Below are positions 1,129-55,025 of a stretch of 64,000 bases of DNA, piece by piece. Where the stretch lies: assembly GCA_947260005.1 (NCBI GenBank), contig CAMYOL010000077.1, positions 1 to 64,000 of the forward strand, in the 5' to 3' direction. The DNA comes from an uncultured Ectothiorhodospiraceae bacterium. GTDB taxonomy: Bacteria > Pseudomonadota > Gammaproteobacteria > UBA6429 > Thiohalophilaceae. Every line of letters begins with the position of its first letter. Position 1 is the first letter of the stretch. The notes beneath the pieces were generated by a model. That model searched no databases. It had not been told where the DNA came from and saw only the letters and a list, made by a program, of their open reading frames with translations. Both the position numbers and the translations under genes were made by a program.

Positions 1129-1472
1129 CGTGATTTCCCCAGTTACTATAAATGTTTGTTCACACACTGCTTGTATACCTTAACCAGATCGATCATTAAG
1201 GTTTAAGCATTTATTCTCAGGGAATTATGTACAGCTAATTGGCAGTATCTCGTTCCCTGACAAAGTTTAAAATTATTTTTTAAAATTAACGTCTATTTTA
1301 TTGTTAATTACGATACCCCAACTTTTATAGACTGATATTATCAGAATAAAAAATGTATAGGAAGACTTTGATATGATGTGCCGTAACACATTTTTAACAA
1401 TATTTAAAGGAAAATTATGGGGTAAACCCGATCCAAACCAAAAATCCTGAATAGCCTTCTGATATCCGCCCA
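1129..1472. other. Intergenic region without a supported gene
   Basis: This AT-rich gap lies upstream of the lipoprotein gene, which reads away to the left. It presumably holds that gene's promoter and leader, but I cannot place a convincing -35/-10 pair. A 66-codon frame on the minus strand starts exactly at the border of the hairpin array and has no ribosome binding site, so I do not call it. Confidence 0.4.
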
Positions 1473-1787
1473 CCGGAGCGAAGCGTAGGAAATACTGGGC
1501 GAACGGCGTAGCCGTTCAAGCCAGTAGACCGGAGCAAAGCGTAGGAAATACTGCATGAAGCCCGCAGGGATTCAAAGCAGTACGAACCATTATATAATGC
1601 ACGGTGCCGGAGTTAACGGAGCGTAGCGTAGTGTATGCTGCATGAAGCGCGAAGCGGTTCAAAGCAGTGGACCGGAGCGAAGCGTAGGAAATACTGGGCG
1701 AACGGCGTAGCCGTTCAAGCCAGAAGACCGGAGCGAAGCGTAGGAAATACTGCATGAAGCCCGCAGGGATTCAAAGCAGTACGAACC
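1473..1787. repeat. Array of five palindromic hairpin modules
   Basis: Five copies of a module start at 1473, 1529, 1607, 1672 and 1728. Each has a lead-in of the type CCGGAGCGAAGCGTAGG followed by a 30-nt hairpin (1495-1524, 1551-1580, 1638-1667, 1694-1723, 1750-1779). The inner stems differ between copies but stay paired or nearly so: GAACGGC/GCCGTTC, GAAGCCC/GGGATTC, GAAGCGC/GCGGTTC, each around a 3-nt loop. The block 1473-1588 recurs at 1672-1787 with two mismatches, so a 116-bp segment was duplicated 199 bp apart. The array lies just downstream of the tRNA-Leu end of the tRNA operon. The same hairpin occurs near 17983-18046 and 33713-33742. Confidence 0.85.
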
Positions 1788-1856: not shown

Positions 1857-1943
1857 TGGTGCCCGGGGCCGGAATCGAACCGGCACGGTGTTGCCACCGA
1901 GGGATTTTAAGTCCCTTGCGTCTACCAATTTCGCCACCCGGGC
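1857..1943 (-). tRNA. tRNA-Leu (anticodon TAA)
   Basis: On the minus strand the sequence folds as a class II tRNA. The acceptor GCCCGGG pairs with CCCGGGC, the D-arm contains AAATTGGTAGAC, and the anticodon loop CTTAAAA gives TAA. A long variable arm and the T-arm GGTTCGATTCC follow, and CCA is encoded at the 3' end (1857-1859). It is the third tRNA of the Gly-Cys-Leu series downstream of pgsA, as in E. coli glyW-cysT-leuZ. Confidence 0.97.
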
Positions 1944-9908: not shown

Positions 9909-9936
9909 TTAATAACCTTTTTCATAATTTTTATGG

Positions 9937-10080
9937 ATTCCCCTCGCCAGGGGAATGACGAGGAGATAGGAGCTAAGCATCTATACGTCATATACCCGCA
10001 GGGCACTTTTCCCGCGGAGGCGGGAATCCACCATATAATAGATTCCCGTCTCCGCGGGAAAAGTGCCCTGCGGGTATGAC
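9937..10080. repeat. Family-2 palindromic elements (dRS3-like) before serS
   Basis: ATTCCC-N8-GGGAAT occurs exactly at 9937-9956. A large inverted repeat follows: 9987-10028 pairs with 10041-10080 (about 40 bp per arm, one 2-bp insertion and one mismatch) around a 12-nt loop. Each arm contains the block GTGCCCTGCGGGTATGA and a second ATTCCC-N8-GGGAA unit (10042-10061). Transcripts through this region could form a very stable hairpin. Confidence 0.85.
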
Positions 10081-17881: not shown

Positions 17882-18187
17882 CAACTTGTTCATTACCAAA
17901 ATGTTCCACAAAAGCCGAGTGGAAGTTGTCATCCTGACCGTAGTCAAGCGTAGGAAATGACCGGAGCGTAGCGTAGGAAATACTGCACGAAGCGTGCAAC
18001 GATTCAACGGCAGTGCCTGCATGAAACGCGAAGCGGTTCAAAGCATGGGGAGCGGAGCGAAAGATCCTTGTTTTCATCAGATTAAGTCGTAAAAGATCCT
18101 TCCCTCCGCTGCGCTCCGGTCAGGATGACAACTTCGACTCGCTACACTCCAGTCAAGATGACAAACTAAGGTGGGTTAGAAAAAGTA
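17882..18187. repeat. Family-1 element with two nested hairpin modules
   Basis: The gap is almost filled by repeats. A left arm begins TTGTCATCCTGACCG (from about 17926). Two hairpin modules follow at 17983-18013 (stem GAAGCGT/ACGATTC) and 18017-18046 (GAAACGC/GCGGTTC). A GATCCTT stretch then leads to a right arm ending GGTCAGGATGACA near 18132, and a further degraded arm (CTCCAGTCAAGATGACA) ends near 18161. No gene fits here. Confidence 0.8.
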
Positions 18188-33524: not shown

Positions 33525-33951
33525 ATATTTAGAATATTGAAAGCTTCAAAGCACGGGAGCTGGAGAGCTGCGAAGTGGAGGTTGTCATCCTGACCGGAGC
33601 GCAGCTCAATTCTGTCATCCTGACCGGAGCGCAGCGGAGTGGAAGGATCCTGATTCTTGCATGATAAGGTACATAAGATCCTTCCACTCCGCTGCGCTCC
33701 GGTCAGGATGACATGCTTTGAACCGCTTCGCGTTTCATGCAGGATTTCCTACGCTTTACTACGGTCAGGATGACAAAATACTCAACGATGGGTGTTGAAT
33801 TACTAAAAGTGTGACGGGTTTTTCGCTTTCAATCTTAATTTAATCAATTTGATACCTTGATCACATCCTTGCTAAAGCCCATATATTGTATTGCCGATAG
33901 AGAATTTGTCAGCAAAGCAATATTAAATACCAAATAGCGAGGTAAGAAGCA
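33525..33951. repeat. Family-1 element with a perfect 37-bp inverted repeat and nested hairpin
   Basis: The arm 33613-33649 (starting TGTCATCCTGACCGGAGCGC) is the exact reverse complement of 33677-33713, around a 27-nt loop. Upstream, 33589-33611 holds a partial extra left arm. Directly after the right arm, a hairpin module at 33713-33742 is the inverted, identical copy of 18017-18046, followed by another right-arm end (GGTCAGGATGACA, about 33763-33775). The remaining 33780-33951 is AT-rich and may contain the promoter of the next small gene; I see nothing else in it. Confidence 0.85.
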
Positions 33952-35712: not shown

Positions 35713-35805
35713 ATTAGACATGGCTCCCCTTCTCCAAGGGGAATGTGCCCTGCGGGTATGACAATAAGAGGCACTGCAAGGGAAATGTGCCCTGCGGGTA
35801 TGACA
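35713..35805. repeat. Family-2 repeat pair after purB
   Basis: A degenerate ATTCCC-N8-GGGAAT-like palindrome (CTCCCC-TTCTCCAA-GGGGAAT) is followed by two direct copies, 42 bp apart, of the block GTGCCCTGCGGGTATGACA (beginning near 35745 and 35787). Confidence 0.75.
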
Positions 35806-46921: not shown

Positions 46922-47089
46922 CATCCAGACAGGAGCGAAGTGGAATGGATTGTCATCCTGACTGGAGCGAAGCGTAGTGGAAGGATCTTAAATTATTTCG
47001 TATTACAAAGAGCAAGATCCTTCCATTCCGCTTCGCTCCAGTCAGGATGACAACACGTTTGCGCTACGCTTTGCTACGGTTTGAATGAC
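46922..47089. repeat. Family-1 palindromic element between rluC and the HAD gene
   Basis: The arm starting at 46951 (TGTCATCCTGACTGGAGCGA) is complementary with a few mismatches to 47015-47052 (ending AGTCAGGATGACA). A partial left arm precedes at about 46922 and a degraded right arm (GCTACGGTTTGAATGACA) ends near 47089. Confidence 0.8.
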
Positions 47090-54747: not shown

Positions 54748-54779
54748 GAAAGTAGAAATTATTTAATTTTTTGAATATT

Positions 54780-55025
54780 GTCATCCTGAACAAAGCGATT
54801 GTTATCTTGTACGCAGCTATTGTCATCCTGAGCGAAGCGAAGGATCTTGGTTTTTTCCAGGTAGGTTCCTTTACGCGTAAGATCCTTCGTCGTTGCACTC
54901 ATCAGGATGACAAGGGAAAGACGTATGTTGAAGATATTGGTTCCTAATTTTATGGATTCCCATCTCCAAGGGAATGACGGATCATGGATTCCCTTCTCCA
55001 AGGGAAAAGTGCCCTGCGGGTATGA
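54780..55025. repeat. Family-1 element followed by family-2 elements before kdsB end
   Basis: A left arm TTGTCATCCTGAGCGAAGCG (from about 54822, with a degenerate copy near 54778) and a right arm ending CATCAGGATGACA (about 54912) form a family-1 palindrome. Then ATTCCC-N8-GGGAAT is exact at 54956-54975, ATTCCC-N8-GGGAAA lies at 54988-55007, and the block GTGCCCTGCGGGTATGA at 55009-55025 ends 9 bp before the kdsB stop. This is the only place in the window where both families lie side by side. Confidence 0.85.

Follow-up and report, generated by a model that had tools for sequence, protein, structure and literature searches.

Background

REPINs, each made of two inverted REPs, are miniature two-hairpin mobile units. 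IS200/IS605 elements insert next to a fixed tetra- or pentanucleotide, and PATEs are non-autonomous derivatives of these elements that carry hairpins near both ends and cause no target duplication. The GTAG REPs, which are associated with RAYTs (REP-associated Y1 transposases), are described as short, dispersed, clustered and imperfect hairpins, non-coding, with paired changes in their stems (PMC2817692, PMC3733652). CGTC-tagged palindromic repeats lack a dedicated transposase, and some members lie inside other palindromes (PMC3733652); the occurrence of palindromic repeats inside other palindromes is already on record (section 7 of the same paper). Two further lines of work bear on the DNA considered here. 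Partial tRNA fragments are described as commonly left by integrating elements (PMC9897764), and GNA loops closed by at least two G-C pairs give rise to very stable DNA mini-hairpins (PMC4686876).

The hairpin element described below shares with the GTAG REPs all of the features just listed. Unlike them, it has no terminal GTAG in the copies examined, its ends being mostly GACC...GTG (the motif G(G/T)AG does occur inside hairpin 1), it carries two unlike hairpins on one strand, and no RAYT carrying the element was found in the sources examined. It resembles the CGTC repeats in lacking a dedicated transposase and in lying inside other palindromes, but CGTC is absent from its ends (143 copies tallied), and self-insertion and tRNA-copy sites do not feature in the portion of the CGTC description that was compared (PMC3733652). 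Like a REPIN it has two hairpins, which here differ in sequence; unlike for a PATE, no parent was found in the Y1_Tnp sources, and there is no fixed target tetranucleotide. Partial tRNA copies stand beside intact tRNAs, as they do around integrative elements, but the account given for such elements, in the excerpt compared, explains the tRNA fragments and not a hairpin inserted in them (PMC9897764). No description of the element was found in those parts of the literature on REPs, RAYTs, partial tRNAs, PATEs and Ectothiorhodospiraceae palindromes that were consulted. We regard it as REP-like miniature mobile DNA and place it outside the GTAG-REP family.

Results and discussion

Architecture of the repeat unit

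The window, that is the whole stretch of 64,000 nucleotides that was analysed, holds an array of five units plus three more copies, one nested inside another. The repeat unit is about 56 nt long and consists of hairpin 1 (GACC..GCGNAGC..GG), a linker and hairpin 2, following on one strand the plan 5'-GACC(hairpin 1)GG-AAATA-CT(hairpin 2)AGTG-3'. Hairpin 1, ACCGGAGCGAAGCGTAGG, is the smaller of the two and also covaries. A first-pass annotation of this DNA had pointed to five 30-nt hairpins with particular inner stems; all five are present as described, and they are the hairpins 2, or 3' halves, of the five array units. Further hairpins occur at 17983-18011 and 18017-18045 (plus strand) and at about 33713-33742 (minus strand). 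Scores below refer to model R1, a covariance model built from 31 copies of the window's own genome, whose E-values are rough owing to a short calibration.

1471-1526, plus strand: element copy 1 (model R1 66.1 bits, E 7.4e-14; hairpin 2 at 1495-1524)
1527-1582, plus strand: element copy 2, then CGAACC (model R1 match 1527-1584, 76.5 bits; hairpin 2 at 1551-1580)
1583-1613, unstranded: probable partial tRNA-Leu remnant between the sub-arrays (CGAACC ... TGCACGGTGCCGGAGT), from sequence identity to tRNA-Leu
1614-1669, plus strand: element copy 3 (model R1 62.4 bits; hairpin 2 at 1638-1667)
1670-1725, plus strand: element copy 4, head-to-tail with copy 3 (model R1 66.6 bits; hairpin 2 at 1694-1723)
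1726-1781, plus strand: element copy 5 (model R1 match 1726-1783, 78 bits; hairpin 2 at 1750-1779)
1782-1791, unstranded: CGAACCGGCA, tRNA-Leu T-arm positions 20-29, directly 3' of the array (100% over 10 nt, E 0.17)
1857-1943, minus strand: intact tRNA-Leu (TAA) gene (ARAGORN; Rfam tRNA 60.2 bits)
17936-17958, plus strand: left half of an interrupted element (from sequence; intact counterpart 98% over 60 nt)
17959-18015, plus strand: element inserted inside another copy, at GGAAAT^CCTGC (model R1 match 17959-18017; junction test)
18016-18047, plus strand: right half of the interrupted element, hairpin 2 (from sequence)
33711-33766, minus strand: single element copy (model R1 match 33709-33766, 74.5 bits)

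In the single copy at 33711-33766, the linker is intact at the very point where the element at 17936-18047 is interrupted.

Both hairpins were recovered by RNAalifold from the 31 copies. Folded singly as DNA, three window hairpins reached z-scores of -3.6, -3.4 and -4.5 against dinucleotide shuffles, and four of five other stretches gave -2.4 to -3.4; one of the eight stretches, a 58-nt copy of the own genome with a CATGTAG end, folded no better than its shuffles (z -0.05). The loop C-GNA-G, in which G and A are conserved and N is variable, is found among own copies of exactly 58 nt in 41/51 for hairpin 2 and 37/51 for hairpin 1, with corresponding values in relatives of 18/24 and 19/24. Across 70 copies, hairpin 2 is more stable on the element strand than on its complement under DNA parameters (-7.32 versus -6.31 kcal/mol), and the two strands hardly differ under RNA parameters (-10.72 versus -10.57). 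Hairpin 1 alone is barely stable on either strand (-0.16 kcal/mol, DNA parameters).

Other repeats share the window. A second palindromic repeat, TGTCATCCTGA...GGAGCGNAGCG..GGAAGGATC, lies at 33583-33713, 46950-47053 and 54776-54857; its inverted arms are long (at 33613-33713 they measure 37 nt and are 100% complementary), and it often hosts copies of the hairpin element. A third family, of ATTCCC..GGGAAT hairpins with GTGCCCTGCGGGTAT tails, occupies 9929-10077, 35717-35803 and 54948-55023, and we take it to resemble repeats of other proteobacteria.

Copy number and distribution in relatives

The genome-wide covariance search that had been suggested along with the five hairpins yielded 82 R1 matches at E<=0.01 in the window's own genome (3.71 Mb, listed as 99.5% complete), grouped into 40 clusters that each hold between 1 and 5; a plain DNA search of the same genome found 48 places. 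Scanning 84,980 named genomes, a collection that may omit the window's own, with a degenerate pattern returned five stretches from two gammaproteobacterial MAGs, ES_Gamma_063 (labelled Ectothiorhodospiraceae) and SZUA-24. Model R1 matched 20/58 genomes, all belonging to the window's family (20/37), and none of the 21 genomes of other families. With R2, a broader model made from relatives' copies, the element was detected in 29/40 genomes of the family and, across the class, in 25/369 genomes, 22 of them outside the family and in 13 other families by our own count, the weakest of these class-wide matches lying near the cut-off. The GACC-hairpin-linker-hairpin-AGTG plan is kept by most of the distant copies shown, and some of the distant copies lie within other repeats. 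At L218 and L220 (around 1501-1551), from two other families, distant relatives of the element sit inside a GTCATTGCGAGGA...GACGCGGCAATC-like repeat, which is presumably a widespread one.

Paired change in both hairpins

Covariation was counted over the 16 pairs of a structure given by hand. The 31 copies showed 90.1% of cells paired and 39 two-sided changes, against 9.8 +/- 2.3 in shuffles. In two larger alignments, which had been fitted to the model and are biased in its favour, 75 distinct rows from the own genome contained 79 two-sided cells (shuffles 18.1 +/- 3.4, 0/500 as high) and 80 distinct rows from relatives contained 114 (shuffles 30.2 +/- 4.1); the MAFFT alignment was made without structure. 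Five covariation measures, computed on the own and the relatives' alignments, were reached by none of 500 shuffles. Kinship alone can push sequences above such shuffles in the absence of any structure, hence the weight placed also on controls in which the structure was slid along the alignment, and these gave at most 20 two-sided cells (own) and 22 (relatives). The suggestion that the stem halves change in step thus holds against shuffled and slid controls alike, and for both hairpins; in hairpin 1, for example, one C-G pair is replaced by T-A in 19/72 own cells. Paired change alone is no proof of selection, since one arm may also be copied onto the other through template switching.

Ends, target sites and empty sites

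After copies outside 50-66 nt and duplicates had been dropped, 146 copies were kept for the flank tally, 143 of them unique, the distant copies of A5 not being among them. The first four bases of the 143 are GACC in 82, GACT in 24 and AACC in 16 (122/143 together). The right end varies: AGTG accounts for 64/143, and ATGT, AGGG, AGTA and GGTG also occur. Immediately outside the element, T precedes it in 107/142, a count inflated by many self-insertions, and C follows it in 67/143, with no longer motif. The insertion site is mostly T^C.

A junction test was then applied to 179 copies (those outside 50-66 nt, short-flanked or duplicate having been dropped), in which the two flanks were joined and compared with other sequences. 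For 43/179, an uninterrupted counterpart runs across the exact junction, two of these, both in L103, being tandem-repeat artefacts. Sorting of the junctions into kinds was done by hand from the alignments, and the list is biased in that empty sites can be detected only for repeated targets. Thirty counterparts lie inside another copy of the element, the insertion being in the orientation of the host copy in 30/30; 20 of these self-insertions fall in the linker (GGAAAT^ACTGC) and 10 in the hairpin-2 stem (GGTT^CAAAGC). Seven counterparts lie in tRNA sequence, with junctions at TTTGTAAT^CAGTAGG and GTGTGT^CGGCACC in tRNA-Thr, GGGGTGT^CGCCAAGC in tRNA-Gln and GGCGCGC^CCGACAGG in tRNA-Arg, and four lie in another repeat, for example at GAGCCTGT^CGAAGG. 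These precise filled and empty sites bear out the idea, raised in the first-pass annotation, of a mobile DNA hairpin.

A non-tRNA example is provided by a local duplication in the own genome (L025, C7:299.9-301.0 kb), whose two copies are identical for 69 nt to the left and 81 nt to the right of the junction and differ only by a 57-nt element at CATTCT^GAGCAAAG. Two genomes of the same genus, G002 and G003, have the adjoining gene end and the DNA downstream but lack the entire repeat compound, which is about 370 nt long. The duplicated part of L025 (1429-1813) comprises, by eye, the 3' end of a chemoreceptor-like gene and a palindromic repeat, with the element in one copy. Filled and empty pairs are silent on order: either insertion or precise excision could have come last.

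No target duplication was seen at the junctions tested. A tRNA-Thr site in G019, GTAGTGC-element-CAACTG (intact sequence GTAGTGCAACTG), has one extra C; this could be a 1-nt duplication or could belong to the element. Terminal inverted repeats are likewise absent, the GACC and GTG ends not being inverted repeats, and on these two grounds the element does not fit a classical MITE. A general preference for hairpin or palindromic targets was also dropped: among the 145 blocks left after filters, 14 had flank self-complementarity at score >=16, no excess over 42/580 random positions. Nor was a replication-strand bias apparent from GC skew, the G-rich strand carrying 19 elements and the opposite strand 22, or 18 and 21 when L226 and L258 (each with a weak copy in opposite orientation) are set aside; two of the 43 stretches, the mixed L227 and the near-zero-skew L248, were left out of this count.

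Two individual copies have unusual surroundings. At L085 876-933 (G029), the element seems, by eye from the flanking frame, to interrupt an IS66-type accessory gene, and at L037 1-200 (own genome C36:12100-12300) tandem units of about 30 nt, TTTGTCATCCTGACCGGAGCTAACGTTGAA, lie upstream of an element copy.

Association with tRNA genes

The array lies about 75 nt from the tRNA-Leu (TAA) gene. It had been described as following that gene directly in the direction of transcription, and this is right, although the strand on which the hairpins are written is the one opposite to the gene. Pieces of tRNA-Leu span the three-copy block, positions 4-17 (19 by eye) before it and 20-29 after it, a match that is weak alone (E 0.17). 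Within the stretch between the sub-arrays, tRNA-Leu positions 4-17 are matched at 86% identity by 1598-1611, and positions 27-34 exactly by 1599-1606; the call of a remnant at 1583-1613, weak alone, is backed by loci L141 and L203. In G001, the intact gene is followed downstream by a partial tRNA-Leu copy whose T-loop is split by three copies of the element; in G074, which belongs to another family, a single copy is placed in the same way. Judged from these sequence matches, the window array appears to be inserted in partial tRNA-Leu sequence at the T-loop, and it would stand beside tRNA-Leu because its units went into that sequence. We read the array as insertions in spare partial tRNA-Leu sequence, with no demonstrated function for the tRNA.

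Other tRNA species are occupied as well. Pieces of tRNA-Thr carry the element in G000, G001, G002, G003 and G019, pieces of tRNA-Gln in G001, G003 and G019, and pieces of tRNA-Ser, or adjoining places, in G000 and G002, the tRNA-Ser locus having a 13-nt tRNA piece 3' of the element. Within the own genome, 3/40 clusters lie no more than 200 bp from a listed tRNA, where 0.14 (for the 22 listed tRNAs, a list that is probably incomplete) to 0.31 (for an assumed 50) would be expected.

The tRNA genes of the window, tRNA-Gly (2296-2371), tRNA-Cys (1970-2043) and tRNA-Leu (1857-1943), occur in the same order in G074 (L203), and there, too, tRNA-Leu is followed by this element. Rfam covariance models matched only tRNAs in the window at gathering score. 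It had been proposed that the array ends the tRNA transcript. Between 1100 and 2500, however, there are two weak terminator-like sites against 2.0 +/- 1.3 in shuffles, a GC-rich stem with a T-run on the tRNA strand being no commoner than by chance rearrangement; a role as intrinsic terminator of the tRNA operon is not supported.

Explanations of the element's spread

The element has defined ends, precise presence and absence, self-insertion in one orientation, and paired change. We consider it probable, with some reserve, that it is a miniature, non-autonomous and strand-asymmetric mobile element that moves as folded single-stranded DNA through an enzyme acting in trans. Near-constant ends, exact presence or absence, nesting in one orientation, and paired change accompanied by loops that are stable as DNA together fit a folded single strand as the substrate. 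The two hairpins would be recognized by a transposase, or by some nicking enzyme of another kind, provided in trans; cleavage of the strand would take place at N^GACC and GTG^N, and religation at a T^C site. Since the enzyme would act upon the folded strand, pairing would be retained. The lack of strand bias counts against a lagging-strand mechanism, which might show such a bias. Also weighing against the reading as a whole are the flanks, no more self-complementary than random positions, the barely stable hairpin 1, the single stretch of eight that folded no better than its shuffles, the variable right end, and the failure to find an enzyme in the Y1_Tnp sources described next.

A related and overlapping possibility, to which we give perhaps a one-in-several chance, is that the element is a minimal IS200/IS605-type derivative in which left-end and right-end hairpins have been fused, a remnant comparable to a PATE. 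Two different subterminal hairpins on one strand, the lack of target duplication and the one-orientation self-insertion all suit such an origin. Y1_Tnp matches number 136 in all by our own sum, in 38/58 genomes, with three genes in the own genome. The DNA around 32/136 of them was searched (34 sources, 100,195 bases, mostly about 1.5 kb on either side), including three strong matches at E <= 6e-38; model R1 found no element copy there at E<=1, and R2 a single chance-level match (E 0.74). In these Y1_Tnp sources, no full-length, autonomous parent with the same ends was found. The mainly T^C target in place of a fixed tetranucleotide, and the even distribution between replication strands, also speak against this origin.

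It is unlikely, in our judgement, that arm-to-arm template switching explains the paired stems and that the element spread passively by duplication and recombination with no dedicated enzyme. Template switching can create and maintain compensatory changes, as reported (PMC8794818), and the flanks are often locally duplicated, a nearby direct repeat at score >=22 occurring in 23 of the 131 blocks left after similar filters, against 4/160 random positions, though these controls were unmatched for intergenic sequence and the excess is only a hint. Arm copying, however, would mend mismatches, and the hairpin-2 pair at columns 34/44 (40/65 in A3) is unpaired in 47/68 own cells, the most frequent letters among 72 copies of 58 nt being A.G (24), G.C (17) and G.A (12). 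The conserved G and A of the loop, around a variable N, and the recurrence of the same ends at unrelated sites argue further against it.

About equally improbable is a mover outside the RAYT/IS200 group for which insertion is coupled with duplication of the target on the spot, leaving an intact copy next to the filled one. The tRNA-Thr, -Gln, -Leu and -Arg loci and the non-tRNA locus L025 do each show a partial or whole duplicate with one copy filled and one intact, and the 13-nt piece at tRNA-Ser and the direct repeats near the flanks of 23/131 blocks are further hints. On a simpler reading, only insertions in already duplicated tRNA sequence survive. If insertion were indeed coupled to duplication, the element could colonize essential tRNA genes.

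Still less likely is a GTAG-type REP family mobilized by a RAYT. The hairpins are small, dispersed and clustered, three Y1_Tnp genes are at hand in the own genome, and the copy numbers of element and Y1_Tnp show a weak positive rank correlation (0.34, p 0.04, 37 genomes). Against this, the GACC, GACT and AACC ends that dominate the tally include no GTAG, and the link with an IS200-like transposase anticipated in the first-pass annotation was not borne out, no significant element copy being found near the 32/136 Y1_Tnp matches searched. Y1_Tnp matches are absent from six family genomes that do carry the element; two of the six are only 66-71% complete, and G001 (10 copies, 95% complete) and G020 (11 copies, 93% complete) are element-bearing genomes of this kind. 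Another five family genomes have Y1_Tnp and no element. On contig C24 of the own genome, the first of two Y1_Tnp genes is followed by an inverted repeat unrelated to the element, CAATGGAGTCAGACCCCATTG. Near each of these two genes lies a small ORF (L048, C24:1-7000), which we assume to resemble a RelE/ParE-type toxin. A further stretch of the same contig, GGGGTCAGAG, agrees with GGGGWSAS, a TIR motif reported for transposases of this sort (PMC3733652).

A role for the array at the RNA level within the tRNA operon, whether as terminator, processing site or 3' stabiliser, is very improbable. Its place some 75 nt downstream of tRNA-Leu speaks for such a role, as do the partial tRNA-Leu copies with an occupied T-loop that lie downstream in G001 and in a genome of another family as well (L141, L203), and the 3/40 clusters near tRNAs. 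Against it, terminator-like sites are not in excess in 1100-2500, the orientation with respect to the tRNA is not the same for all tRNA species, and 37/40 clusters have no listed tRNA within 200 bp, the list being probably incomplete.

Conclusions

Many small palindromic repeats of bacteria have no known mover; the families tied to a RAYT have a candidate. For the miniature mobile element described here, data that are usually missing have become available: near-constant ends, exact empty sites, strand polarity and a target rule, mostly T^C. To these are added paired change in both hairpins and a set of genomes that permits candidate enzymes to be screened by presence and absence. Copies of tRNA genes emerge as places where this element of about 56 nt has landed repeatedly, and its GNA loops are a natural instance of the DNA mini-hairpin GCGNAGC, which may here act as a recognition structure.
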